NCBI GenBank assembly: GCA_023407175.1
Contig: JAEYMU010000055.1
Location: 29,338 to 93,337 of the forward strand
Length of the DNA stretch: 64,000 nucleotides
Direction of reading: 5' to 3'
DNA from: Bacillota bacterium
GTDB lineage: Bacteria; Bacillota_A; Clostridia; Lachnospirales; Lachnospiraceae
Every line of letters begins with the position of its first letter. The first letter of the stretch is position 1. Under the pieces are notes generated by a model. The model did not search any database and was not told where the DNA came from. It was given only the letters and a program-made list of their open reading frames with translations. A program made the position numbers and the translations under genes. Of the stretch, positions 3,090 through 52,430 are shown one piece after another.

Positions 3090-3106
3090 TTTATCACCCC
3101 ATAACG

Positions 3107-4033: not shown

Positions 4034-4079
4034 AAAACAATTGAAATAAAACGTGCGCCCGCCTGGCGCACTGGACAAT

Positions 4080-4127: not shown

Positions 4128-4132
4128 CCATT

Positions 4133-4579: not shown

Positions 4580-4671
4580 AATATGAATTCCTTTCTACTT
4601 ATAATTCTATAATATTTTATGAGAAAGGCAAAAAAAGGTGAGCTGGAATTGGCAGGTATCATAGTCTATCA

Positions 4672-5325: not shown

Positions 5326-5326
5326 G

Positions 5327-6277: not shown

Positions 6278-6282
6278 ATTAA

Positions 6283-6356
6283 GCTCCTTTTCATGATTTA
6301 TAAGTTTACAAAAAATTATATAAGGAGCTTTGGCTCCTTTTCATGATTTAAGTTTA
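6283..6356 (-). repeat. Short direct repeat containing the ATPase ribosome-binding site
   Basis: On the plus strand, 6283-6308 and 6333-6356 are the same sequence (CTCCTTTTCATGATTTA core) apart from a 2-nt difference. The second copy covers the stop of the GntR gene. The middle (6322-6341) can fold AAGGAGC/GCTCCTT, which would pair one Shine-Dalgarno copy. A local duplication; an effect on ATPase translation is only a suggestion. Confidence 0.5.
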
Positions 6357-6728
6357 CTCTTCGTTATATAGCATACGTAAGATTTCCAGCAGCTCTTCCA
6401 GGCCGATACCGCCCGCCCTTGCTTCGGAAACCGCCCTCGTAAGATTATCTTCCACAATACGCAGCTGCTCTTCCCTCACAAATTCCAGGTTCTTCTCTGC
6501 TACGATGCTTCCTTTGCCGACGACTGTATGGATAAAACCATCCCGCTCCAGGTCTTCATAGGCCCGCTTTGTCGTTATGACACTGATGCGAAGCTCCTTT
6601 GCCAGGGTCCGCATAGAGGGGAGCATTGCTCCTGCTTCCAATTCGCCGCTGATAATCATCTGCTTTAGCTGAGTGGTAATTTGCTCATAGATTGGTTTTT
6701 CGCTGGAGTTGCTGATTAAAATATTCAT
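6354..6728 (-). CDS. GntR-family transcription regulator, YtrA subfamily
   Basis: 124 residues, the short YtrA form without a large effector domain. The winged helix is residues ~8-75 with the family motif 'PIYEQITTQLKQMIISGEL' and 'LPSMRTLAKELRISVITTKRAYEDLER', followed by a ~45-residue helical dimerisation tail. GGAGGTGGACA precedes the ATG. It is first in an operon with an ABC exporter, the standard YtrA context. It probably represses its own operon through the large palindrome just upstream. Confidence 0.92.
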   Translation of the reverse strand: MNILISNSSEKPIYEQITTQLKQMIISGELEAGAMLPSMRTLAKELRISVITTKRAYEDLERDGFIHTVVGKGSIVAEKNLEFVREEQLRIVEDNLTRAVSEARAGGIGLEELLEILRMLYNEE

Positions 6729-6745
6729 TGTCCACCTCCGGAGGT

Positions 6746-6780
6746 GTTATATTGTATATATCCGATATATACAATATAAC
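6746..6780 (-). promoter_or_regulatory. Perfect 35-bp palindromic operator for the GntR regulator
   Basis: GTTATATTGTATATATC (6746-6762) is followed by one central base and its exact reverse complement (6764-6780), giving 17 paired positions. It lies 18 bp upstream of the GntR start codon. YtrA-type regulators bind such AT-rich palindromes in their own promoter. Immediately inside it, 6733-6746 (CACCTCCGGAGGTG) is a second perfect palindrome holding the ribosome-binding site. Confidence 0.8.
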
Positions 6781-6831
6781 ATCTCTTTTTTCTAAAGTCA
6801 ACAAAAAGATTTCTCTGATAAAGCAAAAATA

Positions 6832-6878
6832 GGAGTATTGCAAATCAGTTTTTCTGAAAACTTGATTTACAATACTCC
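6832..6878 (-). terminator. Intrinsic terminator of the cysK-like operon end
   Basis: GGAGTATTGCAAATCA (6832-6847) pairs with TGATTTACAATACTCC (6863-6878) with a single mismatch, and inner GTTTT/GAAAAC extends the stem. On the minus strand it is followed by CTATTTTTGC. It lies 30 nt past the cysteine synthase stop. Confidence 0.85.
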
Positions 6879-6908
6879 CATTTCTTTATCGAATGGATAA
6901 ACATAGGT

Positions 6909-7847
6909 CTAATATTCCTGACTATATATGGGCATGGATAAATAACGTTCCCCGGTATCCGGTGCAATTGCCACAACGATTTTACCTGTTCCCAGCTCCT
7001 TGGCTACTTTAATGGCTGCAAATGCTGCCGCACCGGAGGAATATCCCAGCAGCAGCCCTTCTTCCCTTGCCAGCCTCCGGGCAGCCTCCATCGCCTGTTT
7101 GTCTCCTACATCAATGACCTTATGATAAACCTCCGTATTTAATACCTTTGGAATTGTACCGGTTCCGATTCCCTGAATTGAATGAAAACCGCGTTTTCCT
7201 CCGTTAAGTACCGCCGAGGATTTTGGTTCTACACCGATGATTTTGATTTCCGGATTGACCGATTTCAAATACTCTCCGGCCCCGGTTATGGTACCTCCCG
7301 TACCAATTCCCGCAACAAATGCATCAGGCACCTCTCCGCCAAGGGCTTCCACAATTTCGGGTCCTGTTGTCATTCTATGGATTTCAGGATTATGTTCATT
7401 CTCAAACTGCCTTAAAGGAAAATAGCGAAATTTTTTGACTAGTTCCTCCATCTTTGCATAATCCGCTTCGATTCCCCGGGGTGAGGCCGGAACTAAAACC
7501 AATTCGGCACCGTAAGCCCGCAATATTTTCCTTCGCTCGATGCTTGCCTTTTCACTCATTACGATAATCAGCCGATATCCTTTTACTGCGGCCACCAAAG
7601 CAAGGCCAATCCCCGCATTGCCGCTGGTCACATCAATCAGAGTCGTCTTACCGGGTTTAATTAAGCCTTCCTCCTCTGCCTTTTCAATCATGTTTAAGGC
7701 CATCCTGTCCTTTACACTGCCTCCTATATTAAGGTTTTCTAATTTCAGATAAACCTGTGCCGCTCCCTCCGGAACCACTCTGTTCAATCTCACCAAGGGT
7801 GTTTGTCCGATTAACTCCAACGCATTTTTTGTTCTTATTGCAGACAT
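6909..7847 (-). CDS. cysK: Cysteine synthase (PLP-dependent), copy 1
   Basis: 312 residues from ATG 7847, chosen because AAAGGAGG sits 7 nt upstream; the longer frame to 7970 adds residues without homology. It would make cysteine from O-acetylserine and sulfide. Visible are PLP lysine K46 in 'GGSVKDR', phosphate-binding 'GIGTGGTITG', and 'GYSSGAA' near the C-terminus. The substrate-binding loop is 'TSGNAGI' (residues 74-80) rather than the usual 'TSGNTG', so the Thr is Ala78. The second copy at 9638-10576 keeps the Thr. It has its own promoter and leader, and is last in the sulfur locus. Altered substrate preference is possible. Confidence 0.9.
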   Translation of the reverse strand: MSAIRTKNALELIGQTPLVRLNRVVPEGAAQVYLKLENLNIGGSVKDRMALNMIEKAEEEGLIKPGKTTLIDVTSGNAGIGLALVAAVKGYRLIIVMSEKASIERRKILRAYGAELVLVPASPRGIEADYAKMEELVKKFRYFPLRQFENEHNPEIHRMTTGPEIVEALGGEVPDAFVAGIGTGGTITGAGEYLKSVNPEIKIIGVEPKSSAVLNGGKRGFHSIQGIGTGTIPKVLNTEVYHKVIDVGDKQAMEAARRLAREEGLLLGYSSGAAAFAAIKVAKELGTGKIVVAIAPDTGERYLSMPIYSQEY

Positions 7848-8035
7848 ATTTCCCTCCTTTTCTAAATAGAGCACTCTCGTGAACTCCCTTGTACGCATCC
7901 TTGCGGCTAAGTTTCTGAAAGTACTCAAATATCCGCAGCCTGGCTTTATGAATATCCGCAAGCCTGGCAAGCATACGGTTACAGATTTTACATTTTATGT
8001 ATTCATATATGAATACTATGTATTAATCCATCTTT
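7848..8035 (-). other. Long 5' leader of cysK copy 1, with tandem repeat and possible leader ORF
   Basis: About 190 nt between the predicted promoter and the cysK start. 7928-7944 and 7951-7968 are near-identical repeats (AATATCCGCAGCCTGGC / AATATCCGCAAGCCTGGC on the plus strand). A small frame starts at ATG 7974 ('MLARLADIHKARLRIFEYF', later 'YKGVHESALFRKGGK') and reads through the cysK start in another frame. It may be a regulatory leader peptide or the relic of an upstream gene. No T-box or known riboswitch consensus was recognised. Confidence 0.35.
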
Positions 8036-8064
8036 ATTGTACCCCCATTCGCATAGACTGTCAA
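7999..8064 (-). promoter_or_regulatory. Sigma-A promoter of cysK copy 1, with downstream palindromic operator
   Basis: Minus strand: -35 TTGACA (8059-8064), 17-nt spacer, -10 TACAAT (8036-8041). An 18-bp perfect palindrome GTATTCATATATGAATAC spans 7999-8016, about 19 nt after the -10, overlapping the start of the transcript. The same arrangement precedes the ferredoxin gene at 19.3 kb, implying a shared repressor. Confidence 0.75.
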
Positions 8065-8134
8065 ACATTTATTGGCTTCCTGACAATCTGCCGGCAATTC
8101 TTACTTTTTAGGATATGCTCCTATAAAGTTAATA

Positions 8135-8170
8135 AGCCGGTTACCATGGTCAAATCCATGATAACCGGCT
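8135..8170 (-). terminator. Hairpin downstream of the GNAT-GST fusion gene
   Basis: AGCCGGTTACCATGG (8135-8149) pairs with CCATGATAACCGGCT (8156-8170) with one mismatch and a 6-nt loop. On the minus strand it is followed by T-rich TATTAACTTTATAG. It probably ends the long operon before the cysK copy 1 promoter, though the T run is weak. Confidence 0.6.
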
Positions 8171-8240
8171 CTGTAGGCCGGAATGTTAAGCTGCGTCTGA
8201 AAGCTGCCAATGTTGTACTATTGCCGGACCAGACGTTTTA

Positions 8241-9557
8241 CTATAAAAATTTCTTCTGACGGTCATTTGGCTGTGTCCAGACAGAAGCATCCGGCCCATT
8301 GGCAACAATCTGATAAGGATTTTTTTCTTTTTCAGAGCTTAGCAGATAGCCGATTTTGATTGCCTCAAAATCCGTTGTCCCCCCAAACTGCGGAATACTG
8401 TACAAATCCTTTGCATAATTCCACAAATTCGGAAATTCTTTAATTGGATTGCGGTTTAAGCGAAAGGCGAAATAATAAGCCGCATCAAATCTTGCCAAAA
8501 TCACATAGAGCCGAACATCCGAATCGGTAACATGGTTCCCGAAGAGATACCTGCTCCTTGATAATCTCTCCTCCAGCCAATCCAGTCTTGTAAATACCAG
8601 CTCATAATTCTTTTCATATTCCTCCTGTGTTGTGGCAAGGCCCGCTTTATCAATCGCGTTATTAATTTCATGAAGCAGGATATGATTGAGTTCATCTATT
8701 TCTGTACGAAGCTCCTTCGGATACAAATCCGGCGCCCCTTCCTTATGAAAGGGCTTCCATACGGTCTCCCAAGCATTCGTTAATTTGAAATAGTCATTAT
8801 TCACCACCCGGCGTGTTTCCAAATCTACTACTGCAGGTACCGTTGCCCGTCCGGTATAATCCGGATCGGTTTCTTCATAAATTTCGGTAAGATACCGGAT
8901 TTTAAGCACCGGGTCTATACCCCCATCATCCAGAGAAAATTCCCAGCCCTTTTCCGTTCTTCGGGGATTTGCTGTCCCGATACTGATGACCTGATCAAGC
9001 CCTAACAGCTTCAGGACTATGATCTGGCTGTGTGCCCACGGACAAGCCGGTGTCCACAGCAGACGGTAACGGTTTGCCGCAACCGGCAACTCCCCCTTTT
9101 CGGCACCAAAGGGTATGGTAAGGCATGAGATGTTTTTCTCTGTCAGGACGGTTGTAAATATACCGCCCTTTTCCGTCTGGCTCCAATCCGCTTTATAACC
9201 AAGCTTCTCATAAAACCCTACCGCCTCATCCCTGCTCGTTATCAGGATTTTACGGATGCCAAGCTCCTCAAGCCAGCGTTCTGCTGCCTGTATCAGCTCC
9301 TTCCCGACCTTTTTGCCGCGGTATTGCTCCAACACACAGACTCTTTCAATCTTTGCGGTTGTCTCATCCAGAATATGCAATCTGCAGGTGGCAACCGGCA
9401 GTACATCATCCAGAGCCAAAACATATAAGGTATCCGGTGTATCATTCTGATCAAATTCCTTTTCAAGCGGTATGTGAAAGCCCTTTACCATTGCCTCTGT
9501 TCTTACATAATGGACCCCTGCCCGCTGCCATTCCTGCGTAACCCTTATTATATTCAA
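8241..9557 (-). CDS. GNAT acetyltransferase fused to a glutathionyl-hydroquinone reductase-like (Xi-class GST) domain
   Basis: 438 residues, start TTG at 9557 with a weak AGGCAGGGA site; the next Met (residue 23) would cut into the GNAT fold. Residues ~1-140 are a GNAT N-acetyltransferase with acetyl-CoA loop 'EQYRGKKVGKEL' and 'GFYEKLGY'. Residues ~155-430 match the GST-like glutathionyl-hydroquinone reductase family: catalytic Cys172 in 'TPACPWAHS', 'TVPAVVDLETRRVVNNDY', 'FGNHVTDSDVRLYVILARF', and the final 'PNLWNYAKDLY'. Such reductases remove glutathione from quinol thioethers. The fusion sits among cysteine synthases and a peptide importer. I infer that acetylation and thioether cleavage act on one S-conjugate. 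The thiol cofactor is unknown. Confidence 0.82.
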   Translation of the reverse strand: MNIIRVTQEWQRAGVHYVRTEAMVKGFHIPLEKEFDQNDTPDTLYVLALDDVLPVATCRLHILDETTAKIERVCVLEQYRGKKVGKELIQAAERWLEELGIRKILITSRDEAVGFYEKLGYKADWSQTEKGGIFTTVLTEKNISCLTIPFGAEKGELPVAANRYRLLWTPACPWAHSQIIVLKLLGLDQVISIGTANPRRTEKGWEFSLDDGGIDPVLKIRYLTEIYEETDPDYTGRATVPAVVDLETRRVVNNDYFKLTNAWETVWKPFHKEGAPDLYPKELRTEIDELNHILLHEINNAIDKAGLATTQEEYEKNYELVFTRLDWLEERLSRSRYLFGNHVTDSDVRLYVILARFDAAYYFAFRLNRNPIKEFPNLWNYAKDLYSIPQFGGTTDFEAIKIGYLLSSEKEKNPYQIVANGPDASVWTQPNDRQKKFL

Positions 9558-9637
9558 CGCAATCCCTGCCTTTCTGTTTGTGTTCTTGCTCCCATGCCTC
9601 TTTGTTTCTCTGCCTTCCTGTTATATCACTCCATGCC

Positions 9638-10576
9638 TTATTGCTCTTCGTTATAGAGCGGCATTGACAGATAACGCTCTCCGGTATCCGGTGCAATCAC
9701 CACAACCGTTTTACCCGCTCCCAGCTCCTGTGCTGTTTTAATAGCTGCATAGATGGAGGCCCCGGAGGAATAACCCAGCAAAAGTCCTTCCTTCTTCGCC
9801 AGTTCTCTTGCCGTATCAATTGCCTGCTGGTCGGTAACGTCAATTACCGTATCATAAATACTGGTGTTTAATACCTTGGGAATGGTTCCCGTACCGATTC
9901 CCTGAATAGAGTGGGGCCCCGGCTTCCCTCCGTTTAAGACTGCGGAGGATGCGGGCTCCACACCTACCACCTTGATCTTAGGATCTGCTGCTTTGAGGTA
10001 TTCTCCCGCTCCGGTTATGGTTCCGCCGGTTCCGATTGCCGATACAAAGGCCTCCGGTACCCTTCCGTCAAAGGCCTCCACAATCTCCGGTCCCGTGATA
10101 TTTCTATGAGCCTCCGGATTGTGTGCATTTTCAAATTGTCTTAAGGGATAATAACCCTTTGTCTGCACCAGCTCCTCCAGCTTGGCCAGATCAGCCTTGA
10201 TCCCCTCCGGTGACGGAGGTACCAGAACCAGCTCGGCACCATAGGCCTTCATTAATTTTCTGCGCTCCACACTGGCCTTTTCACCCATTACGATTACAAG
10301 ACGATAGCCCTTCACCGCTGCCACGAGGGCAAGACCGATGCCTGTATTACCGCTGGTTGCATCCACCAGAGTAGTTTTGCCCGGAGCTATCAGGCCCTCC
10401 CGCTCCGCCTTCTCAATCATATTCAGAGCAATTCTGTCCTTAATACTTCCTCCGATATTGAAATTCTCTAATTTAACATAAATATCGGCCCCACCCTCCG
10501 GAGCCATCCGGTTCAGCTTTACCAGCGGCGTGCGCCCGATTAATTCCAGCGTATTTGCAGCCTTTATCAGTGACAT
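9638..10576 (-). CDS. cysK: Cysteine synthase (PLP-dependent), copy 2
   Basis: 312 residues, closely similar along its whole length to copy 1 at 6909-7847. It has PLP Lys46 in 'GGSIKDR', an intact 'TSGNTGI' loop, 'AIGTGGTITGAGEYL' and 'GYSSGASIYAAI'. It would combine sulfide with O-acetylserine. The gene lies inside the operon, 80 nt before the GNAT-GST fusion and 107 nt after the other GST-like gene, with no obvious promoter in either gap. Its presence next to reductive cleavage enzymes suggests that released sulfide or thiol is re-fixed as cysteine. Confidence 0.92.
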   Translation of the reverse strand: MSLIKAANTLELIGRTPLVKLNRMAPEGGADIYVKLENFNIGGSIKDRIALNMIEKAEREGLIAPGKTTLVDATSGNTGIGLALVAAVKGYRLVIVMGEKASVERRKLMKAYGAELVLVPPSPEGIKADLAKLEELVQTKGYYPLRQFENAHNPEAHRNITGPEIVEAFDGRVPEAFVSAIGTGGTITGAGEYLKAADPKIKVVGVEPASSAVLNGGKPGPHSIQGIGTGTIPKVLNTSIYDTVIDVTDQQAIDTARELAKKEGLLLGYSSGASIYAAIKTAQELGAGKTVVVIAPDTGERYLSMPLYNEEQ

Positions 10577-10683
10577 AATCTCATCCCTTCCGGTTTATAA
10601 CGAAAACCTCTCTCATTTTCACTTCGGCCCCCCGCTTTTCTATCTGTTTTTCATATCGCGGGCACAGTATTCTATTTTAACTG

Positions 10684-11712
10684 CTATCCCTGTTTTACTG
10701 TCAGGAATTTTTCATCCCCGTGCTTTGACAGCTCCTCACGTCCGTGGGGCAGCTCCCAGCCGCTTATATCAGGACCCTTTGCGTAGATTCCATGAATATT
10801 TCCCCATAAGGGTCTTAGATGCGGAGATAATTGATAATGTTTTTTAATTAAATCAAAATATGTAGTCTCCCCGAAGCCCTCTGTCTGATATAAATCCCTG
10901 GCATAGGGCCATAGATTCTTAAATTCCTCCAGCCTGGTCCGGTTCGCCCTGAAAACCTGGTAATAGGTAACCTGAAAACGGGCCAGCGTAGGGTACAGAC
11001 GCACATCGGAATCCGTAATATAATCACCAAATAAAAACCTGCGGTTCTCCAGATGCTTATCCAGGAAGTCCATTGCTTCAAAAAACCGTTCATACCCCAG
11101 ATTGTAAGCCTCCTGGGAACGGGCAAAGCCGCATTTGTAGACTCCTTCATTAATTCTTTCATAGATAAATGTATTTAACTGGTCGATATCCTTTCTAAGC
11201 TTTACCGGGTATAAATCAGGGGCATTCTTTTTGTGATATTCCTTCCAATCGGTGTTCAGATAAATGGGAATCCAAAAATGATCATTATTAACCCCCTTCC
11301 CCGTCTCCGGGTCCGTTATAATCGGAACCGTGGATCGACCGGTAAAATCAGGCACCTCCCTGGTATAGATATCGTGCAGGTAATGAATCTTAAGTACAGG
11401 GTCCACTTCTCCCGGGTCTTCACTGAAAACCCAGCCGATTTTACTGCGGAGGATTCCGGTGGTCCCCAGGCTGATTACCTTATCCAGTCCCAGAAGCTTT
11501 CTGGTTATTACAACCTTATGAGCATGGGGACAGCCCGGCATCCATATCAGCCGGTACCGGTTCGGTACAACAGGCCATTCCTCCGGTCCGTTGCCAAACC
11601 TTTTTGTAAACATATTCGGTTGCCTTTTTATCTCACCGTCGCTTTGAATCTGATGCTTGAAGGTATTTTCAAACAGTTCGATACCTTCAAAGGCTGTAGT
11701 ATTTTCCGACAT
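10684..11712 (-). CDS. Glutathionyl-hydroquinone reductase-like (Xi-class GST) protein
   Basis: 342 residues from ATG 11712, preferred over 11724 because TGAGG stands 6-7 nt upstream. It aligns end to end with the C-terminal part of the GNAT fusion. The catalytic Cys61 lies in 'MPGCPHAHK', a variant of CPWAH. 'DFTGRSTVPIITDPETGKGV', 'FGDYITDSDVRLYPTLARF' and 'NLWPYARDLY' are the family's GST-C signatures. The reductases reduce glutathionyl-hydroquinones through a mixed disulfide on this Cys. It follows the importer ATPase gene by 61 nt in the same operon. Substrate and thiol donor are unknown. Confidence 0.82.
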   Translation of the reverse strand: MSENTTAFEGIELFENTFKHQIQSDGEIKRQPNMFTKRFGNGPEEWPVVPNRYRLIWMPGCPHAHKVVITRKLLGLDKVISLGTTGILRSKIGWVFSEDPGEVDPVLKIHYLHDIYTREVPDFTGRSTVPIITDPETGKGVNNDHFWIPIYLNTDWKEYHKKNAPDLYPVKLRKDIDQLNTFIYERINEGVYKCGFARSQEAYNLGYERFFEAMDFLDKHLENRRFLFGDYITDSDVRLYPTLARFQVTYYQVFRANRTRLEEFKNLWPYARDLYQTEGFGETTYFDLIKKHYQLSPHLRPLWGNIHGIYAKGPDISGWELPHGREELSKHGDEKFLTVKQG

Positions 11713-11773
11713 ATTCAACCTCATTTCTGCGCTGTCGAATGCTCCCCTGCGGAAGCCGTGCGCATTTTATTCC

Positions 11774-12796
11774 TTAAATCAAATATTCTGCTCCCGTATC
11801 CTTGCGCAGTCCCTTATCCTCCCTGCTCATTGGAAGCTCGCCTGCAAAATGGCAGGCTGCATAATGCTTCTCACCGATCTCCCTAAGTTCCGGAAGCTCC
11901 TGAAAGCATATCTGCTTTGCATAGGGACACCTTGCCTGATAAGGACACCCTACGGGCGGCTTTAAGTGAGACGGAGGCTCCGTAACAGACTGTTCATCCT
12001 TTTCATCCCACTGAAGCGATGTGATCAGGTTAGATTTTATCAGCATCTGTGTATAGGGATGAACGTAGTGATTTAATACCTCCGCTGCACTGGCATATTC
12101 CACGATATAGCCAAAATACATCACCGCAATGCTGTCACTTAAGAAGCTGACGCTTGCCATGTCATGGGAAATAAATAGATAGGTGGTCTTATAAGCCTGC
12201 TGCGACTGCTTCAAAAGATTGAGGATCTGTCCCCGGACGGAAACATCCAGGGCAGATACCGGTTCATCCAAAATTAAAAGCTTCGGTGACATAATCAGCG
12301 CTCTCGCAATAGCAATGCGCTGTCTCTGCCCTCCGCTGAATTCACGCGGATAACGCTGCAGATAATCCACGGCCAGGCCGACCTGGGTCATAACCCTGAT
12401 TAGCTTCTCATCGATTTCCTTCCTGGTATACCTTTTTGATATCACCAGCGGTTCCGCTATGATATCTCTGATTTTCATGCTTGGGTCCAAAGAGCTGTAG
12501 GGGTCCTGAAAGACCACCTGGACATTCTTATGGTAATTACTATCCTCCTTCTGATCAAAGGCGGAAATATCCTTGCCGTTAAAATAAATCGTCCCACTTG
12601 ATAGCTTCTCCTGCTTTAGGATCAGTCTTGTTGTAGTTGTCTTTCCCGATCCGGATTCTCCGACTAAGCCCAGAGTCGTTCCCTCTTCAATGGAAAGGGT
12701 CACATCCTTTAATATATGCACCTCGGTGGTTTTTCCAAAAATACTTTTATTCGTATAAATTTTATTAACTTTTTGCAGCTCCAGTGCTTTACTCAT
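11774..12796 (-). CDS. Oligopeptide/dipeptide-type ABC importer ATP-binding protein (OppF/DppF/GsiA-C like)
   Basis: 340 residues from ATG 12796, chosen because GGAGGGTATC precedes it and it overlaps the preceding gene by 8 nt. Walker A 'GESGSGKTTT', signature 'FSGGQRQRIAIARAL' and Walker B 'LLILDEPVSALD' are intact. The C-terminal oligo_HPY-type segment contains Cys-rich 'CPYQARCPYAKQIC', which in this subfamily can hold a metal cluster. With the paired ATPase, two permeases and binding protein upstream it completes one importer. Confidence 0.93.
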   Translation of the reverse strand: MSKALELQKVNKIYTNKSIFGKTTEVHILKDVTLSIEEGTTLGLVGESGSGKTTTTRLILKQEKLSSGTIYFNGKDISAFDQKEDSNYHKNVQVVFQDPYSSLDPSMKIRDIIAEPLVISKRYTRKEIDEKLIRVMTQVGLAVDYLQRYPREFSGGQRQRIAIARALIMSPKLLILDEPVSALDVSVRGQILNLLKQSQQAYKTTYLFISHDMASVSFLSDSIAVMYFGYIVEYASAAEVLNHYVHPYTQMLIKSNLITSLQWDEKDEQSVTEPPSHLKPPVGCPYQARCPYAKQICFQELPELREIGEKHYAACHFAGELPMSREDKGLRKDTGAEYLI

Positions 12797-13754
12797 CCGA
12801 TACCCTCCAGCAATATACCTCATGCCCTTCCTTCACCGTAAATCTCGGCGGTCTGCTCTCCATGCATCTTAGGTTACTGTAGGGACAACGGTCTGCAAAC
12901 ACACAGCCCTTCGGCTGTGTAACCAAATCCGGCGGCTGCCCGTCAATCGTCACATATTTATCCACCGCCGCTCCCTCCAGGTTGGCGGAAGCAAACAGCG
13001 CCCTGGTGTAAGGATGCAGGGTATTATGAAAAAGCTCCTCCCTCTCTGCGGTCTCCACAATAATTCCGGCATACATGACCGCAATCCGGTCGCACATCAT
13101 GGAGATCACTTTGATATCATGGGAGATGAAGATAATAGCTGTCTTATACTTTTTTTGAATGCTCTTTAACAGCTTCAGATATTGAAGCTGTATTGTCACA
13201 TCCAGTGCCGTCGTCGGTTCATCCGCAATAATCAAACGCGGGCGGCAGCTGATGGCTATGGCGCCTACAATCCGCTGCAGCATACCTCCGCTTAACTGAA
13301 AGGGATAGCAGGATAATTTCTCCCTGGAGATATTCAGCTGTCCGGCAATCTCCTGTACCTGTCTGGCACTTTCCTTCCGGCTGATTTTCTGATGGGTACG
13401 GATGGTTTCTATCATCTGGTTTTCCACCGTGTAAAGCGGGTCAAGCGCCGCCATCGGGTCCTGCAGGATAACTGCCACCTGCCTTCCATTATACCCTCGC
13501 AGCCTCCTTTTACTGAATTTCAGGACATCCTCCCCATCGAATAAAATCTCGCCGCCCACGGCCTTTAAGCCGATCCGTTCGCTGTAGCGCAATACAGAAA
13601 GGGCTGTCATGGTTTTCCCGCAGCCGGATTCTCCTATAATGCCAAAGCATTCCTCCTCATGAACAAAGAAGCTGATGTCGTTAATTATATGCAGGGTTCC
13701 CTTAAAGGAGGGCATCTCTGCTACAAAGTTCTTCACTTCCAATAGCTTTTTCAT
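12789..13754 (-). CDS. Oligopeptide/dipeptide-type ABC importer ATP-binding protein (OppD/DppD like)
   Basis: 321 residues. The start at ATG 13754 overlaps the permease stop (ATGA), so translation is coupled; the longer frame runs into permease coding sequence. Walker A 'GESGCGKTM', signature 'LSGGMLQRIVGA' and Walker B 'LIIADEPTTALD' are visible. The C-terminus carries 'CVFADRCPYSNLRC', the oligo_HPY motif with spaced cysteines. It forms the heterodimeric ATPase with the product of the next gene. Confidence 0.93.
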   Translation of the reverse strand: MKKLLEVKNFVAEMPSFKGTLHIINDISFFVHEEECFGIIGESGCGKTMTALSVLRYSERIGLKAVGGEILFDGEDVLKFSKRRLRGYNGRQVAVILQDPMAALDPLYTVENQMIETIRTHQKISRKESARQVQEIAGQLNISREKLSCYPFQLSGGMLQRIVGAIAISCRPRLIIADEPTTALDVTIQLQYLKLLKSIQKKYKTAIIFISHDIKVISMMCDRIAVMYAGIIVETAEREELFHNTLHPYTRALFASANLEGAAVDKYVTIDGQPPDLVTQPKGCVFADRCPYSNLRCMESRPPRFTVKEGHEVYCWRVSDE

Positions 13755-14605
13755 CTGACTGTGCCCCCCTTTCCCTTTAACCATTCTCCCAGACGCTGGA
13801 AGGAAAGTACCGTAAGAATTGTCACCAGTGCAGGAAATACGGAAATCCACCAGGCCTTCAGAAAATAATTGTTACCGTCCGCTATCATCTGCCCCCAGGA
13901 GGGAGTTGGCGGCGATACACTAAGCCCCAGAAAGCTTAAGGAAGCCTCCAGGATGATTGCCATACCGATTTCCAGGGTGACCATTACAATTACAACGCTT
14001 GTAATATTAGGTATAATATGTCTCGCAATGATTCTTAGATCGGAAGCCCCCATAATTTTTGCCTGTTCCACAAAATTTTTCTTCTTCAGGGTAATAACCT
14101 CCGTCTTAATCGTCCTTGTATATTTCGCCCACATGGAAAAGGAGATGGAAATAATGGCCGACTTCACTCCTGCTCCCATACTGATTGCAAGCAGCAATGC
14201 CAGTAAAATGCTTGGAAATGCCAGCGACGCATCGGTCAGACGCATAATGAGCGTATTATGGATACCGCCGTAATATCCGGCAATAATACCCAGTGCGGTG
14301 CCAAGAAGCCCTCCCACCACAATTGCCGCCAGCGCCACAATTAAAGATATTTTGCCTCCAAGCATAATTCTGCTAAGAATATCCCGGCCCAGCTCATCCG
14401 TTCCCAGCAGGTACCGGAAGGAGCCTCCCTCCATAAAAAACGGAGGTGTGAGCTTATTGGTCAAGCTCATGGCCAGGGGATCATGGGGCAGAAACAAAAA
14501 GCCTGCCACTCCGTTTACCAGGAATAATGCAATAATGAAAACCGCTATTACAGGGAGTTTCTTTGATGCCTTTACTGCTGTCGCCTTTTTGCTTTCTTTA
14601 CTCAT
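13751..14605 (-). CDS. Dipeptide/oligopeptide-type ABC importer permease (DppC/OppC like)
   Basis: 284 residues with an N-terminal OppC-type helix ('AVFIIALFLVNGVAGFLFL'), 'LGTDELGRDILSRIMLG' (the DppC signature), and the permease EAA loop 'VEQAKIMGASDLRIIARHI'. About six membrane segments. It lies 12 nt after the DppB-like gene and overlaps the DppD-like gene by 4 nt. Confidence 0.93.
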   Translation of the reverse strand: MSKESKKATAVKASKKLPVIAVFIIALFLVNGVAGFLFLPHDPLAMSLTNKLTPPFFMEGGSFRYLLGTDELGRDILSRIMLGGKISLIVALAAIVVGGLLGTALGIIAGYYGGIHNTLIMRLTDASLAFPSILLALLLAISMGAGVKSAIISISFSMWAKYTRTIKTEVITLKKKNFVEQAKIMGASDLRIIARHIIPNITSVVIVMVTLEIGMAIILEASLSFLGLSVSPPTPSWGQMIADGNNYFLKAWWISVFPALVTILTVLSFQRLGEWLKGKGGTVR

Positions 14606-14617
14606 TTTTTCTTCCCC

Positions 14618-15535
14618 CTATGTAAGATTTCGTACTCGGGGGTCCAAAACCGCCGCCAGATTATCCACCAGAAAGGAAAGTAGAATTGTAAATGCCGAAA
14701 GTATCAGCACAATACCCTGTACCAAGGGAAAATCCCTTGATAAAACGGCCGTATAAGACAGGGTTCCGACTCCAGGCCAGGCAAAAATGGATTCTACCGC
14801 TACACTTCCGCTGATGAGATTTGCAAAAATAAAGGAGCTTAGGGAAAGCACGGAAGCAAAGGAGTTGCGAAGGGCATGCTTAAGGATTACAAGATATTCC
14901 CTAAGACCCTTCAGTCTTGCAAATTTAATGAATTCTCCTTCCAGTGCCGCAATCATATTATTGCGAAGCAGCATGACCATGCCGGAGGATATTGCCATAC
15001 CAAGCAGGAGGCTTGGCAGAATGAAATGCCTCGGCGTACTTGCTCCGGATACCGGAAACCAGTGCAGCTTTACCCCCAGAATTTGAACAAAGATAATCGC
15101 GGAAAAGAAAATCGGACAGGATTGCCCCAGGGCGGCAAAGGCAATAATACCTTTATCTACCCAGGTATTTTTCTTGACAGCGGCTAAGGTACCGAAAACC
15201 AGGGTAAAAAGCATTGCCAAAAGAATGGCGGCAACGGCAAGAATCAGCGTATTGGGAAGCTTTTCTCCAATCACCTCAAGCACCGGACGCTTGCTGGCAT
15301 AGGATTTTCCCAGATCACCGTGCAGGACATCTTTAATGAAAATCCCATACTGTACGATCAAGGGCTGATCCAGTCCAAGCTCATGGGTCAGATACTGCCG
15401 CTGCTCCTCACTAGCCTTGTCATCCAGCAGGCTTTGCAGCGGGTCCCCGCTGGAGCGGGTTGCAACAAAGATAACGATGGAAATGATAAATAATGTGACC
15501 ACCGATTGTATCAGCTTATTTATTACATATTTCAT
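14618..15535 (-). CDS. Dipeptide/oligopeptide-type ABC importer permease (DppB/OppB like)
   Basis: 305 residues beginning with the family's 'INKLIQSVVTLFIISIVIF' helix. It continues with 'QYLTHELGLDQPLIVQYG', the loop 'FIKFARLKGLREYLVILKH' and 'AVESIFAWPGVGTL'. It pairs with the DppC-like permease 12 nt downstream. GsiC/D glutathione importer subunits belong to the same superfamily, so a peptide or thiol conjugate is as plausible a substrate as dipeptide or nickel. Confidence 0.92.
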   Translation of the reverse strand: MKYVINKLIQSVVTLFIISIVIFVATRSSGDPLQSLLDDKASEEQRQYLTHELGLDQPLIVQYGIFIKDVLHGDLGKSYASKRPVLEVIGEKLPNTLILAVAAILLAMLFTLVFGTLAAVKKNTWVDKGIIAFAALGQSCPIFFSAIIFVQILGVKLHWFPVSGASTPRHFILPSLLLGMAISSGMVMLLRNNMIAALEGEFIKFARLKGLREYLVILKHALRNSFASVLSLSSFIFANLISGSVAVESIFAWPGVGTLSYTAVLSRDFPLVQGIVLILSAFTILLSFLVDNLAAVLDPRVRNLT

Positions 15536-15560
15536 TCTCCCATCCTCCCTTCTTTGTCTG

Positions 15561-15604
15561 ACAGAGCTGTCGGAAAATTCATCCTGAATTTACAACAGCT
15601 CTGT
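15561..15604 (-). other. Stem-loop between binding-protein gene and permease genes
   Basis: ACAGAGCTGT (15561-15570) pairs with ACAGCTCTGT (15595-15604); inner AAATTC/GAATTT (15575-15580, 15586-15591) extends it. On the minus strand no U run follows, so it is more likely a partial attenuator or RNA-stability element that raises binding-protein levels above those of the permeases, as is common in such operons. Confidence 0.5.
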
Positions 15605-15620
15605 TTTTCCATTTTCTTAT

Positions 15621-17249
15621 TTATTTTAATTTGAAGCTGTAGAACCAGTTGCCCCAATGAGCCGCATAGGCAGAATCCCAGCTTTCTACCTTGGAGCCTA
15701 CTGCATAATCCTGACTCGGATATACCAGCGGAATTGAGACATTTGCTTCTGCCACAAGATCAAGTATTTTATTCACGGTATCGGAACGGTCACTGCCATC
15801 CAGGGCTGCAAGCTGTGTAATATCTCCATCCAGCTCCGTATTTCCCTGAATTAAACCAAAGGTGGAATTAGAGGGATAGAAGGCCTGGAACGCATCATGG
15901 GCACTGTATTTTTTCGGAGGGTCAAACAGGTATACGGAGCCTGAGAATTCACTGTCAAGAGGCTTCGCACTGTACAGGGCGCCTAAGGTGGCACGGTCTG
16001 TGGAAACAATTTCAACCTCCAGGCCTACTGCCTGCCAATAAGCCGCTACTGCCTGCACCACTTCCGAACTGTAAACCTTCGCAGCCGTATCATAGAACTT
16101 AATTACCGGGTTAGAGAATTGGTCAGGATATCCGGCCTCCTCCAACAGCTCCTTCGCCTTATCCGGGTCATACTGGGTAATCTCTCTTACCGTATCGTAT
16201 CCCGTTGTGAAGGGGAACACACCCCAGGCTCCCGATGCCGTCGCCTTGCCCTCGAACAGGCCGTCTGCCAGCTCCTGGCGGTTAATTGCATAATTCATTG
16301 CTTCTCTGACTAAGGAATTTTGTGTGGCTGCCCCCGTACTGTCATAGGCTCCGCTGATGAAGATTCCCAGGGAGGAGCTATAATCCACCGTATTAATTGT
16401 AACTGCTTCATCATTTTCAAATAAGGAGGCGCTGGTTGCTCCAATCGGTGCAAAATCGATATTTCCTGCCTGTAATTCTGATATTCTTGTGCTCTCCTCC
16501 GAAATTTGGCGGAAAATCAGCTTATTAATATCCGCAGCTCCTTGCCAGTAATCCTCGTTGGCAACAAAGTCAATTTCCTCTCCTGCTGAGAATTTCTCCA
16601 GCTTAAAGGGACCGGTACCAATGGGATTTGCGGAAAATCCGTCAGCTCCCACCTTCTCAAAATAGGCTTTGGGCAACACAATTCCGGTGCCCGTTCCTCC
16701 CTCAGATAACAAATACTCAAATTCGGTGCAAGGGGAATTGAAATTAATCACTACCGTCAGGTTATCCGGTGTATCGATGCTCTTAACATATTCGATCAAT
16801 AAATTCTTATCCGCCTGTTTTGAATCATCGGAAGCATAATACTCCAGAGTGAATTTTACATCTGCACTGGTAAGCTCGGAGCCGTCCTGGAACTTAACCC
16901 CCTCCCGAAGCTTCAGGGTAAAGGATAATTTATCCTCCGACAGGGTCCATTCGGTTGCCAGCCCGGGAATATAATTTCCGTCCTTATCTACAAAGATCAA
17001 GGTATCAAAAACCGGTTCAATCTGCTCTAAGCTGGATAATGCAATTGTTCCCGGATTAAAGGGCTGATCAGCTACGGAAATGACGCCTACGGTCAGTGTT
17101 TTGTCCGAGCTGTCTCCGGCAGCCGCCTCTGTGATGGTACCGCTGGGCTGTGATGTTGTTTCATCCTTTTCTGTTTTCTTTCCGCAGCCGATCAGGGAAG
17201 CAGCCATTGTTACTATAAGTATTAATGTAATCCATAATTTTTTGTTCAT
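15621..17249 (-). CDS. Extracellular solute-binding lipoprotein, family 5 (DppA/OppA/GsiB-like)
   Basis: 542 residues. Lipoprotein signal with lipobox 'SLIGC' (Cys ~22), then a Thr/Ser/Glu linker. Family 5 signatures are 'PVFDTLIFVDKDGNYIPGLA', 'LREGVKFQDGSELTSADVKF' and 'NPIGTGPFKLEKF'. It captures peptide-like ligands outside the membrane for the permeases downstream. Its gene lies between the flavoprotein and the permeases, so redox enzymes and importer are cotranscribed. The ligand cannot be read from sequence; the context suggests a sulfur-containing peptide or S-conjugate. Confidence 0.9.
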   Translation of the reverse strand: MNKKLWITLILIVTMAASLIGCGKKTEKDETTSQPSGTITEAAAGDSSDKTLTVGVISVADQPFNPGTIALSSLEQIEPVFDTLIFVDKDGNYIPGLATEWTLSEDKLSFTLKLREGVKFQDGSELTSADVKFTLEYYASDDSKQADKNLLIEYVKSIDTPDNLTVVINFNSPCTEFEYLLSEGGTGTGIVLPKAYFEKVGADGFSANPIGTGPFKLEKFSAGEEIDFVANEDYWQGAADINKLIFRQISEESTRISELQAGNIDFAPIGATSASLFENDEAVTINTVDYSSSLGIFISGAYDSTGAATQNSLVREAMNYAINRQELADGLFEGKATASGAWGVFPFTTGYDTVREITQYDPDKAKELLEEAGYPDQFSNPVIKFYDTAAKVYSSEVVQAVAAYWQAVGLEVEIVSTDRATLGALYSAKPLDSEFSGSVYLFDPPKKYSAHDAFQAFYPSNSTFGLIQGNTELDGDITQLAALDGSDRSDTVNKILDLVAEANVSIPLVYPSQDYAVGSKVESWDSAYAAHWGNWFYSFKLK

Positions 17250-17284
17250 CGTTTATTTTCCTTTCTTTGCTGTTGGTTGATAAT

Positions 17285-19072
17285 CTATACTGTTGCTTCT
17301 TCATTTATATGGGTGTTTACCTTAATGCTGCCGTCATCGTCCCTGTACAGACCATAAATTTCTGTCCGGGGAAGCACTCCGTCCTTAGGCGCTACCCGCT
17401 CACCATAAATCCGGCGGTCATCATCCGGGTATCGTTTGAAGGGGCCCAGATTTTCCTTGCGAAGCTTTGCCGCCGTGAAGATTGCCCGGGCAGTTTCAAT
17501 CAGGGAAAGCACCTCAAAGCTTCTTGTAAGCTCATGTGCATCTGCCGCCTTCAGCTTGCCTCTGCTGCTTAAAGCATCAATCAGAGCAAGTGCCGTATCG
17601 ATCTTATTATCAGAAAGGGGATAGACTCCAAATATCCCTATAATACTTTGCAGGGTACTTTGGACATTCCTCCATTCCTCTCCGGTCTGGGTGCTTCTTA
17701 TTTCCTCAGCCTTTTGAAGGATTTTTTCAATCTGTTCCTTTCGGGCCCCTGGAATCTCTGAAATCGTCTTGGCCTTTTCGGCCGCCTGAAGTCCTGCTTC
17801 ATACCCAAAGACTACCGCTCCCGGAGCGCACATCTGTCCGGCTCCTCCGATGGCATCACCGGCGGCATAGAGATTGTTTACTGTGGTTTCACATTTGACA
17901 TTGACATAGGCTCCGGTACTGCTGCCGTGAATCGCTACCCGCTTTTTCAGCTGAAAGGGTATTTTCACCTTATGTAAATCAATCTTATCCTCCTTAAGAT
18001 TTTGAAGATACAGCCAGCACTTTCCTTCATGGAACATGCTCCATTTGATGTATTCCACTTCCTCGGCGGTGGCCTCTGCCAGGTCCACATATAGCTGTTT
18101 TCCTTCCGCCATATATTTCCCCATGGATACCTTCTGTCTGGCATACTTATTCATCTGGTCCACATTCTTCTTAAGATAATCCGGCTCATTGATGTCATAA
18201 TCAATGACTCTTTCCACAATGACATTCCCTTCGTCATCTATGACACGCCCTGCCGGCCACCAGGTACCGCCGGGGGCTCCTGCGGTGAAATTAAAGCCCG
18301 GAAATGCCAAGCCGCCGTTTTTGATATAAAACTCCAGATTGACTACCTCCGCTCCGGCATTCATGGCAAGAGTAACACCATAACCGCAATTTGCCGCGCT
18401 TGGACCTTCAAAGAAATCATGGGTGGTATTAAAATTCTCCGATAACCTGGCGGCACCGCCGGAGGTGGCTATAATTGTTGTCTTTGCCTCTACCACCAAC
18501 AGCTTATCCTCTCTGGTGGACAACGCGATTGCACCGGCCGCATTGCCTTGTTCATCCTTTAAGACCTCTATGGCCTGGGCATGGTTTATAATCTGCACTC
18601 CGGCTTTTTGCATCGCCTCTGTCAGCTTCACCTTGACATCTCTTCCCTCAAAATGAAAGCTGGTGGGAACTGTATGAAACTGCGGCACCAGACGGAAGCC
18701 TTCCGCCAGATGGCTTTTCTCATAGCGGAAATTCAGGCCGTATTTTTCAAGGCTAAGAACTCTCTCATAGCTGGTTTCCACAAAATGATCCGTGAGCTCC
18801 TTATTTCCAAGCCCCAGGCCCATTAATTCCACTTCCACCATATCCTTTTTCATAAGCTCTTTGGTATAGCCCACCTTTTCATGCACCGGAGGTACATAGC
18901 TGTAGATATGGTCAAGCCCTGAGCCCGCATTTCCGCTGCGGTAGGTATTGGCCTTCTCAAGAACAATTACCTTTGCTTCATGCTCTCTTGCCTGTAAGGC
19001 AGCCATAGCGCCGGATAATCCGCCACCGATCACAAGAACATCGGTCTGGTATCGCTCAATTGTATAGGACAT
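17285..19072 (-). CDS. FAD-dependent oxidoreductase, AprA/FrdA/SdhA family
   Basis: 595 residues. The N-terminal FAD fold is clear: 'DVLVIGGGLSGAMAALQAR' (~residues 10-28), 'VIVLEKANTYRSGNAGSGLD', and the second FAD motif 'NNLYAAGDAIGGAGQMCAPG' (~residues 395-414). The C-terminal helical domain is of the succinate dehydrogenase type. Length and the ferredoxin partner directly upstream (stop and start adjacent) match AprAB-type pairs. In APS reductase this subunit reduces adenylylsulfate. No sulfate activation genes (CysD/N/C or Sat) lie nearby, so I think it acts on an organic acceptor linked to sulfur salvage. Substrate unproven. Confidence 0.85.
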   Translation of the reverse strand: MSYTIERYQTDVLVIGGGLSGAMAALQAREHEAKVIVLEKANTYRSGNAGSGLDHIYSYVPPVHEKVGYTKELMKKDMVEVELMGLGLGNKELTDHFVETSYERVLSLEKYGLNFRYEKSHLAEGFRLVPQFHTVPTSFHFEGRDVKVKLTEAMQKAGVQIINHAQAIEVLKDEQGNAAGAIALSTREDKLLVVEAKTTIIATSGGAARLSENFNTTHDFFEGPSAANCGYGVTLAMNAGAEVVNLEFYIKNGGLAFPGFNFTAGAPGGTWWPAGRVIDDEGNVIVERVIDYDINEPDYLKKNVDQMNKYARQKVSMGKYMAEGKQLYVDLAEATAEEVEYIKWSMFHEGKCWLYLQNLKEDKIDLHKVKIPFQLKKRVAIHGSSTGAYVNVKCETTVNNLYAAGDAIGGAGQMCAPGAVVFGYEAGLQAAEKAKTISEIPGARKEQIEKILQKAEEIRSTQTGEEWRNVQSTLQSIIGIFGVYPLSDNKIDTALALIDALSSRGKLKAADAHELTRSFEVLSLIETARAIFTAAKLRKENLGPFKRYPDDDRRIYGERVAPKDGVLPRTEIYGLYRDDDGSIKVNTHINEEATV

Positions 19073-19300
19073 TTACTTTCCTCCCTTCCCCAGGATAAAG
19101 ACTGGCTTATTATTCGCATTATAAGTTACCTTAAGCGCCCCAACCGGACAGTCCATCTGACATGCTCCGCAAAGCCAGCATTCCTCCGGATGTGCTACAT
19201 ATACCGTTCCATTCTTGTCTAGCCCATACAGTCCTTCCGGACATCGTTCATAACAGATTTTACAATTGATACATTTGTTGTAATCAATTATGGAAGCCAT
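19073..19300 (-). CDS. AprB-like ferredoxin with two [4Fe-4S] clusters
   Basis: 75 residues from ATG 19300, the start with AAGGAG at proper distance (8 nt); GTG 19309 and ATG 19306 are too close to that site. Two cluster motifs are 'CINCKICYERCP' and 'CWLCGACQMDCP'. The short C-terminal tail 'VTYNANNKPVFILGKGGK' resembles AprB-type subunits but is much shorter than true AprB. It is first in the operon, one base before the flavoprotein gene. It would pass electrons to the FAD subunit. Confidence 0.88.
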   Translation of the reverse strand: MASIIDYNKCINCKICYERCPEGLYGLDKNGTVYVAHPEECWLCGACQMDCPVGALKVTYNANNKPVFILGKGGK

Positions 19301-19325
19301 TTCCATCACTCCTTACTCTTTATAC

Positions 19326-19414
19326 AATACATATATGTATTATATGTTTTTATTGTAATTTTTATTTTATAGCACTGGTTTGCATATGTCAATACATTCT
19401 TTACATATATGAAT
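19326..19414 (-). promoter_or_regulatory. Sigma-A promoter of the sulfur operon with CATATATG palindromes
   Basis: Minus strand: -35 TTGACA (19387-19392), 17-nt spacer, -10 TAAAAT (19364-19369). A perfect 16-bp palindrome AATACATATATGTATT lies at 19326-19341, about 22 nt past the -10. A related imperfect site ACATATATGAAT lies upstream of the -35 at 19403-19414. The downstream palindrome matches the one at 7999-8016 in core and position. Confidence 0.75.
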
Positions 19415-50863: not shown

Positions 50864-51955
50864 TTAATACATCTGATTAACCTTTTCCAATATTTCTGCA
50901 TCCGATGGAGATAATTCAGGGTTATCATAGGAAACATCTGCCGTCATCGGCTCTAATACCACCAGCTCTTTCATTTTCTTAAGCTCCAGATATCCGACCT
51001 CACCCGCCAGCGCGGTAACGATACCGCCAAAAACAAAAATGACGGTTAGTATACCAGCAAAAGCAACTGCCTTTTTACTCATTTTCTTTACGTTCAGCAT
51101 GAACACCAGCCTCTCCTTCAAATTCTGCTTGGGAAGCAGAAAGGGAGTTCCGAAGTTCGAACCGTAAATCGGCATGATTGCGGCTGAATCAAGAATTGCC
51201 ATGCCATACTTTTTCTTATTGTCCAGGGTTAGATTTATGGCATTCCTTTCATCACACGCATATTCACACCATTTATCCAAATTAGCGATCATCAGATAGG
51301 CCAGCGGATTAAACCAGTGCATGGTGCGGATGATAAGCGTTATGATTTTAAATATCATATCCTTTTGCTTATAGTGGGTCAGCTCATGCGATATTATGTA
51401 TTCTGAATTGGTTAAGTCCAAATCATCCGAGGGCAATAAAATAATCGGGGAAAAGAAGCCTATCAGCATTGGTGTAGTTATATTCTCATTGACATATAAA
51501 TGAACCTTCTTTTTGATCCCCATCTTTGCCGCACAGCTTTTCGCAACCCATTGGTGCATTGCATTCGCAGGTACTCTGTTGCAGTATACGATATATCGGA
51601 ATTTTATGAAGCAGACGAGCTGGCTTAATAATATCCCGGCTATACCAACAAGCCAGATGCCCAAAGCAATGGAGACTTCCATGCCATGAGCCGACGTAAG
51701 CTTATTTACTTTACCTGCATAATCTGAAATAATTCCTATTCCCTGACTGGCTTCTATTTCGGAAAACCTGTTATTTATCGGTATCGTAATGATTTTACCA
51801 AAGGGAAGCAGAAAGAACAGTGAAATACATTTTAAAACATTATAATGCCAGGTAGCACTGAAATGATGCTTTGTAACTTGTTCAACTACTTTGAAAAGTG
51901 CAAAAACCAAACCTCCCGTAATTGACATTAATAAAACGTAATACAGCAGGTTCAT
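50864..51955 (-). CDS. BlaR1/MecR1-family M56 metallopeptidase sensor
   Basis: 363 residues. Four membrane helices in the N-terminal ~290 residues and the zinc-peptidase motif 'SHELTHYKQKDMIFKI' (HExxH), with 'NPLAYLMIANLDKWCEYACD' downstream. It lacks the C-terminal penicillin-binding domain of true BlaR1; the end is a short tail ('DNPELSPSDAEILEKVNQMY'). It lies 8 nt after the BlaI-type repressor gene. In this family, ligand sensing activates the peptidase, which leads to cleavage of the repressor. Confidence 0.88.
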   Translation of the reverse strand: MNLLYYVLLMSITGGLVFALFKVVEQVTKHHFSATWHYNVLKCISLFFLLPFGKIITIPINNRFSEIEASQGIGIISDYAGKVNKLTSAHGMEVSIALGIWLVGIAGILLSQLVCFIKFRYIVYCNRVPANAMHQWVAKSCAAKMGIKKKVHLYVNENITTPMLIGFFSPIILLPSDDLDLTNSEYIISHELTHYKQKDMIFKIITLIIRTMHWFNPLAYLMIANLDKWCEYACDERNAINLTLDNKKKYGMAILDSAAIMPIYGSNFGTPFLLPKQNLKERLVFMLNVKKMSKKAVAFAGILTVIFVFGGIVTALAGEVGYLELKKMKELVVLEPMTADVSYDNPELSPSDAEILEKVNQMY

Positions 51956-51963: not shown

Positions 51964-52353
51964 CTACCTTTCAGAAAGCCATTTTTTCAATTCGGCAATC
52001 TCTTCCTGTGATAATCTCTTATCCCCATATAATGCTGCAAAGAAATTCTTGATAGAGCCCTCGTACAAAACCTCCAGTATATTCTTTGCTTTATACCGGT
52101 TGTACTCCTCAAAGGTGATCGCAGGCTGATGTACCGTCCCCCTACCCTTTACTTCAGATTTCAGAAGCCCCTTTTCCGTCAATCTTGATAAAAAGGTTGC
52201 CAACGTCTGCAATTTCCACTCTTTTTGGCGTTCCTGGTTGAAATACGTCAGTAAATCAACCGTAGAAATCGGCTCCTCCTGCTTCCACAGATATTCCATA
52301 ATCTCCAGTTCGGTTTCCGAGATATCCTTGATACCCTTGATACGCTTCGTAAT
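51964..52353 (-). CDS. BlaI/MecI/CopY-family repressor (apparent ATT start)
   Basis: Winged-helix repressor: 'DISETELEIMEYLWKQEEP' and 'WKLQTLATFLSRLTEKGLL', with a C-terminal dimerisation and cleavage region. The frame's first conventional start, GTG 52357-52359, overlaps the AAGGAGG ribosome site itself and so cannot be used. The codon at normal distance (5 nt) is ATT 52353. The next ATG (residue ~21) would delete part of the helix-turn-helix. I place the start at ATT. It is coupled to the peptidase gene. Confidence 0.85.
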   Translation of the reverse strand: MTKRIKGIKDISETELEIMEYLWKQEEPISTVDLLTYFNQERQKEWKLQTLATFLSRLTEKGLLKSEVKGRGTVHQPAITFEEYNRYKAKNILEVLYEGSIKNFFAALYGDKRLSQEEIAELKKWLSER

Positions 52354-52401
52354 CCACACCTCCTTATTTTACTGCGTTCGTTATACATTTTTCTACATTT
52401 T

Positions 52402-52430
52402 ATACTACATATATGTAGAGTGATTGTCAA
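52402..52430 (-). promoter_or_regulatory. blaI-type promoter with overlapping palindromic operator
   Basis: Minus strand: -35 TTGACA (52425-52430), 17-nt spacer, -10 TAGTAT (52402-52407). The spacer contains CTACATATATGTAG (52405-52418), a perfect palindrome of the TACA/TGTA type that BlaI/MecI repressors bind. A further TACAT half site follows downstream (52384-52398). Confidence 0.75.

Follow-up and report, generated by a model that had tools for sequence, protein, structure and literature searches.

A candidate two-unit organosulfur-salvage cluster with Xi-type glutathione S-transferases in an anaerobe-type bacterium

Organization of the locus

The analysed window, i.e., the whole 64 kb stretch of contig JAEYMU010000055.1 (positions 29,338 to 93,337), comes from an anaerobe-type bacterium of the Lachnospiraceae and carries on its minus strand, from position 19300 to position 6909, a locus of eleven genes, each with a clear family match (Table 1). 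A ferredoxin gene is followed by genes for a flavin adenine dinucleotide (FAD) flavoprotein, a five-gene family-5 ATP-binding cassette (ABC) importer, a Xi-type glutathione S-transferase (GST1), a cysteine synthase, a GNAT acetyltransferase fused to a second Xi-type GST (GST2) and a second cysteine synthase. These are the eleven genes listed in an initial annotation of this stretch, all of them confirmed by the family matches. The genes of the first unit, upstream of cysK2, are closely packed. Both cysteine synthases exceed the cut-off of the CysK model TIGR01139 and their products are 75% identical, the GST domains of GST1 and GST2 being 50% identical. The start of cysK2 is most likely at 7847 (312 aa) and not at 7970. 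Because a terminator-like hairpin and a promoter-like site precede it, cysK2 may form a separate transcription unit. In a Rfam scan of the window nothing reached the gathering score, hence the window showed no known riboswitch or T-box. The gene set is real and recurrent and, since other genomes contain parts of it as well, these genes have not come together merely by chance.

Table 1. Features of the eleven-gene locus and of the related sites in the window.
Feature	Position	Strand	Description
Ferredoxin	19073..19300	-	2[4Fe-4S], 75 aa, eight Cys in two CxxCxxCxxxC groups
FAD flavoprotein	17285..19072	-	595 aa, AprA/3′-phosphoadenosine 5′-phosphosulfate (PAPS) reductase/fumarate reductase fold, FAD_binding_2
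Family-5 solute-binding lipoprotein	15621..17249	-	Pfam SBP_bac_5; best solved relative 1uqw YliB, E 1.9e-40
Importer permease 1	14618..15535	-	BPD_transp_1
Importer permease 2	13751..14605	-	BPD_transp_1
Importer ATPase 1	12789..13850	-	ABC ATPase, oligo_HPY; true start probably internal
Importer ATPase 2	11774..12823	-	ABC ATPase, oligo_HPY
GST1	10684..11724	-	Xi-type GST, CPHA motif
Cysteine synthase cysK1	9638..10576	-	PALP; TIGR01139 399 bits, cut-off 351
GST2	8241..9557	-	GNAT acetyltransferase N-terminal to Xi-type GST, CPWA motif
Cysteine synthase cysK2	6909..7847	-	PALP; TIGR01139 388 bits, cut-off 351
Promoter-like site, main unit	19364..19392	-	TTGACA-17-TAAAAT; consensus scan, 11/12 matches
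Promoter-like site before cysK2	8036..8064	-	TTGACA-17-TACAAT; consensus scan, 11/12 matches
Terminator-like hairpin after GNAT-GST	8134..8171	-	16 pairs, weak T tail
Palindrome, first copy	19328..19339	.	TACATATATGTA, inside 16-bp AATACATATATGTATT; candidate operator downstream of -10
Palindrome, second copy	19402..19413	.	Upstream of main-unit -35
Palindrome, third copy	8002..8013	.	TTCATATATGAA; candidate operator
Palindrome, fourth copy	52406..52417	.	Flanked by -35-like and -10-like hexamers ahead of the BlaI-type repressor gene
BlaI-type repressor	51964..52359	-	Penicillinase_R
BlaR1-type M56 membrane peptidase	50864..51955	-	Adjoins the BlaI-type repressor gene

Xi-type GSTs and the GNAT-GST fusion

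The GST profile matched the solved Xi-class structures 4pts, 3m1g, 6gzf and YqjG 3r3e (E 5e-99 to 4e-68), and the relation to the solved Xi enzymes extends over the whole protein. In an alignment of 153 GSTs that contains both window proteins, 148 keep the cysteine at the catalytic position; the remaining five are fragments of about 200 aa and are gapped at this position. The motif was CPWA in 86 sequences, CPHS in 25, CPHA in 14, CHWS in 13, CNWS in 9 and CPYA in one. Judging from this conserved cysteine alone, the glutathione-hydroquinone-type chemistry put forward initially may apply to the window GSTs. Most of 14 related GST genomes lacked a match for glutathione synthesis: with a GshF-type model, nine gave no match and five scored below the cut-off, a search of limited force as none of the control genomes passed the cut-off either. 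Because none of the 14 genomes passed this cut-off, the thiol donor of the GSTs may be other than glutathione.

The GNAT domain of GST2 is 40-68% identical to 17 listed stand-alone GNATs, which form one cluster and all come from GST loci, ten of them being at least 57% identical to it. Further GNAT-GST fusions (P0258, P0260 and P0261; 57-59% identity, 99% query coverage) were found among the best 120 of 4899 hits. The two domains are fused here, adjacent in other genomes and encoded in shared loci elsewhere, which points to one pathway for both. The likeness to the acetyltransferase of the Bacillus yxe pathway, put forward initially, is limited to the domain being an acetyltransferase typical of such pathways; a specificity for 2-succinocysteine is not readable from the sequence. 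Besides, L012, L016-L020, L022-L031 and other loci encode GSTs of about 480-500 aa in which a GST C-terminal domain is present a second time, in partial form.

Gene company of the GSTs in relatives

A scan of species genomes with the GST alignment gave 317 relatives, of which the best 80 correspond to 78 loci (L001-L078), split by record title into 36 from Bacilli and 42 others (mostly Clostridia, one Treponema and some unplaced). The GST family was found in 12 of 200 Lachnospiraceae-family genomes searched and its distribution is therefore patchy. The neighbour genes were clustered and the cluster representatives named by family models, those of the PatB-family C-S lyase, the peptidase-T-like M20 and the M20 amidohydrolase scoring above the cut-offs of TIGR04350, TIGR01883 and TIGR01891, respectively. 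Among the 42 non-Bacilli loci, GNAT was encoded in 24, CysK in 22, a family-3 (polar amino acid type) binding protein in 29, a permease in 26, a peptidase-T-like M20 in 18, an M20 amidohydrolase in 4 (any M20 in 19), PatB in 14, a cystathionine-synthase-type enzyme in 14 and a LysR regulator in 11. The control set, 20 regions of 20 kb from five of the GST-locus genomes, yielded one binding protein, one permease and one cystathionine-type enzyme, and no GNAT, CysK, peptidase-T-like M20, amidohydrolase, PatB or LysR. At least one of seven partner kinds was present in 38 of the 42 loci vs. one of the 20 controls, and at least three kinds in 22 vs. none. In a held-out set of 16 GST regions from 12 Lachnospiraceae genomes, reduced to 15 by removal of one duplicate of a used locus, ten had a partner.

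The GSTs themselves are often multiple, with at least two genes in 32 of the 42 non-Bacilli loci and a maximum of five. A GNAT gene abuts the GST in 16 of these 42 loci, and in Bacilli, whose loci lie in the range L032-L078, a GNAT gene on the same strand lies within 300 bases of the Xi-type GST in 35 of 36. The Bacilli loci are mostly without importer or CysK (CysK in one, family-3 binding protein in three). In this gene company, GNAT, CysK, importers for amino acids, the peptidase-T-like M20 and PatB are all far more frequent than in the controls, which favours sulfur salvage and supports the recovery of sulfur from S-conjugates that had been proposed for the locus. The company of sulfate-activation or nickel genes, which had been named as speaking against that proposal, was not seen in the annotated relatives.

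Very similar sets combining a family-5 importer and the flavoprotein were found in L003, L006 and L008. In L008, from a metagenome-assembled genome (MAG) of Lachnospiraceae, a cystathionine-type enzyme, PatB, a peptidase-T-like M20 and family-5 permeases and ATPases are followed by two GST genes (one short), two flavoprotein genes, ferredoxin, a family-5 binding protein, GNAT, CysK and another GST; L006 holds part of this set. L003, from a Family XIII MAG (contig also G003:C60), starts with a flavoprotein fragment at the contig edge and continues in the order of the window with binding protein, permease region, two ATPases, GST and CysK. L005 and L098 denote one place, in which flavoprotein, ferredoxin, GNAT-GST-type and GST genes lie between NMT1-type importers and a nitrogenase-like gene pair. 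This pair (Oxidored_nitro, within positions 4251-14266 of L098, beside the FAD-ferredoxin pair, the GST genes and the importers) might have a methylthio-alkane-reductase-like role.

Importer and flavoprotein-ferredoxin pair

After YliB, the next solved relative of the binding protein is HbpA 3m8u (E 3.5e-33). YliB, which we take to be the glutathione-binding GsiB, as best relative agrees with the importer part of the S-conjugate recovery proposed initially. The importer of the window is of the same ABC class as the glutathione importer GsiABCD but has two separate ATPases and scores far below the Gsi cut-offs (GsiB 162 vs. 594, GsiC 233 vs. 463 and GsiD 210 vs. 484 bits). Because the binding protein is so far under the GsiB cut-off, the assignment is supported for the ABC class only. 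Nickel uptake by a NikABCDE system was ruled out by the scores (TIGR02294 145 vs. 393, TIGR02789 234 vs. 447 and TIGR02790 244 vs. 358 bits).

The redox pair had been described as AprAB-like. This stands for the fold only. The pair shares the fold and the eight-Cys ferredoxin partner with adenosine 5′-phosphosulfate (APS)/PAPS reductases of the AprAB type, and the flavoprotein reaches 79.5 bits with the aprA model TIGR02061 (cut-off 641.75); the Foldseek and VIA rows show fold only. A related ferredoxin adjoins the flavoprotein gene in eight of ten relative loci mapped, and a scan of species genome contigs with the single flavoprotein found no relative. Methanothermococcus thermolithotrophicus has a PAPS reductase of the FAD type; this enzyme and dissimilatory AprAB have the same fold and type of partner (PMC10322725, excerpts), but the window flavoprotein is about 24% identical. 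Besides, ATP sulfurylase was matched in none of nine flavoprotein genomes and CysD in one, the completeness of these genomes not being given. Because eight of the nine thus lack both matches, an APS-reductase role for the pair is unlikely. A putative catalytic His is common to P0213, P0216, P0220 and 8a8o (GH in SGHSA / GGHGQ). It has no aligned counterpart in the 18 rows shown with at least 37% identity, although in four of these a His is shifted by two positions; the alignment is poor in this region.

A release of sulfite from sulfonates, as by AsfAB, which we take to be an arylsulfonate-type desulfonating pair, is weakened as well: a sulfite-reductase domain was found in three of the nine genomes (completeness again not given) and in none of the four that are GST-linked. 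It still fits L091, the only one of the nine flavoprotein genomes with CysD, where the FAD-ferredoxin pair occurs with a sulfite-reductase-type protein, siroheme genes and an O-acetylhomoserine sulfhydrylase-type gene (positions 2240-11304). In L094 (4430-12665), the pair adjoins aminotransferase-V, ThiF-rhodanese, ThiS, JAB and CysM-type genes, resembling a protein-thiocarboxylate-like cysteine route.

Proposed salvage route

In Bacillus subtilis and its kin, the scm (yxe), yha and ytn clusters encode an acetyltransferase together with a monooxygenase and a deacetylase (PMC12757645 and PMC10863075, in part). Known cysteine-conjugate salvage relies on oxygen-dependent monooxygenases or on a succino-lyase. 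A survey of 102 yxe loci counted 67 with the monooxygenase, 27 with the lyase 2SL and 11 with neither, i.e., without known cleaver (PMC9706529, excerpts). The window locus resembles these clusters by the association of a GNAT acetyltransferase, found at 8241-9557, with an ABC importer and a putative cleaving enzyme, and would follow a similar acetylate-cleave-deacetylate strategy (PMC12757645, in part). However, its cleaver would be a GST instead of a flavin mononucleotide (FMN) monooxygenase or 2SL, it has a family-5 importer, two CysK and the flavoprotein-ferredoxin pair, and a deacetylase gene was not found in it. No luciferase-family FMN monooxygenase occurs among the locus genes, and Bac_luciferase was matched in none of the 14 GST genomes vs. 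10 of 14 control genomes, B. subtilis included. Because this type of monooxygenase was not found in the 14 genomes, a cleaving role of the GSTs is plausible. Xi-class GSTs reduce glutathionyl or mycothiolyl hydroquinones, i.e., activated thioethers (PMC6345682 and PMC6815410, excerpts). The window GSTs share their fold and catalytic cysteine but differ from them by the CPHA motif of GST1, the fusion of GST2 to GNAT, the clustering of their relatives in multiples and hosts mostly without a glutathione-synthesis match. A literature search of limited coverage turned up no description of a GST-based salvage cluster for cysteine conjugates.

From these comparisons, a sulfur-salvage role of the gene set is likely. 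The fuller proposal, to which we give an even chance, is a two-unit organosulfur salvage cluster representing an oxygen-independent variant of the acetylate-cleave-release salvage of cysteine, in which thiol-dependent GSTs do the cleaving. The family-5 importer would take up a sulfur-bearing peptide or amino-acid conjugate and, judging from its kin and gene company, the GNAT domain would acetylate the S-conjugated cysteine. By analogy with Xi-class chemistry, the conserved cysteine of both GSTs would form a mixed disulfide with the sulfur side of the thioether while the organic part leaves reduced, and a thiol would then liberate N-acetylcysteine or cysteine, a route which would need no oxygen. 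The least certain steps come last: the FAD-ferredoxin pair may supply low-potential electrons for a further reduction of organosulfur to sulfide or thiol, which the two CysK enzymes may fix into cysteine. We infer all of this chemistry, i.e., substrate, product and activity, from sequence. Because the thioethers on which Xi-class enzymes act are activated ones, e.g., hydroquinone conjugates, phenolic or quinone-type conjugates are perhaps more likely substrates than plain S-alkylcysteines.

Several observations weigh against this proposal. An M20-type deacetylase is not among the eleven genes of the locus. In the relatives, only four of the 42 loci have the acetyl-removing M20 amidohydrolase; the M20 that is seen more often, in 18 loci, resembles peptidase T and fits the import of peptide conjugates better than acetyl release. 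The activated thioethers that Xi-class enzymes are known to cut are of the quinol and acetophenone kind, and a plain S-alkylcysteine may be out of their reach. GST1 has CPHA vs. the CPWA of the Xi class, which GST2 has. The flavoprotein occurs in only 4 of the 14 GST genomes, and also in loci without GST match (L091, L092, L093, L094, L095 and L097). As for gene company, L016, L019, L021 and L072 (4 of 42) lack the main partner kinds, as do the held-out L143, L146, L147, L149 and L156 (5 of 15) for any partner; moreover, these same 78 loci had served to define the partner families, and many of them are close kin.

The cluster could instead serve mainly in detoxification, the GSTs reversing thiol adducts of quinones or other electrophiles and sulfur recovery being a by-product. 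The hydroquinone-reducing activity of the Xi class speaks for it, as does the situation in Bacilli, where GST and GNAT (35/36) mostly stand alone, with CysK in 1/36 and a family-3 binding protein in 3/36. However, in the window an importer and two cysteine synthases belong to the same run of genes, and relatives add C-S lyases and LysR regulators, so that we consider detoxification to be unlikely. Somewhat less probable still is that the FAD-ferredoxin pair is an APS/PAPS reductase or an AsfAB-like sulfite-making pair, in which case the locus would be a route for sulfate or sulfonate and the GSTs would assist in it. This idea draws on the shared fold and ferredoxin partner, but is opposed by the scarcity of ATP sulfurylase, CysD and sulfite-reductase matches in the flavoprotein genomes and possibly by the His that is unaligned in a poorly aligned region. 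Two CysK and a GNAT would also suit the biosynthesis of an S-substituted cysteine product, with CysK joining a thiol to O-acetylserine, GNAT acetylating and other enzymes tailoring. Yet uptake-type importer genes recur in the relatives, likewise PatB (14/42) and the peptidase-T-like M20 (18/42), and genes for a carrier protein or a ligase were not seen in the window, which makes such a biosynthesis very improbable.

If the GSTs do cleave S-conjugates in anaerobes, this would explain why several GSTs are retained by bacteria with few signs of glutathione synthesis, and would open to gut, rumen and soil anaerobes a route to the sulfur in mercapturate-like, phenolic or drug conjugates. As for the flavoprotein-ferredoxin pair, it would add to the APS-reductase fold a new branch that serves a different task. 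A broader proposal, which is tentative and rather doubtful, is that sulfur-salvage islands of anaerobes, containing as many as five paralogous Xi-type GSTs per locus, cleave acetylated cysteine S-conjugates reductively without oxygen, filling the cleaver gap of loci without YxeK and 2SL. In the window, a new FAD-ferredoxin reductase would take organic sulfur without a sulfite stage, perhaps under the switch of a BlaI-type repressor.

Promoter-like sites and a recurrent palindrome

The promoter scan has a low specificity, with 30 promoter-like sites vs. 21.3 ± 5.3 in shuffles. The palindrome TWCATATATGWA has four copies in the 64 kb vs. 0.07 in shuffles; the pattern was derived from the sites at 19328 and 8002, and the independent copies are those at 19402 and 52406 only. 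Three copies lie at the two promoter-like sites of the sulfur locus and the fourth precedes the BlaI-type repressor gene, and it is possible that this repressor regulates the locus. Operators of the BlaI family have TACA/TGTA halves, but with other spacing. A TACA-bearing BlaI motif was looked for in PMC8457756 and was not found in the available part of that source. An operator common to the relatives received no support, TWCATATATGWA being absent from 119 of 121 loci. Elsewhere in the window, positions 54528-56866 carry a GMC oxidoreductase gene together with the gene of a small partner protein without Pfam match.

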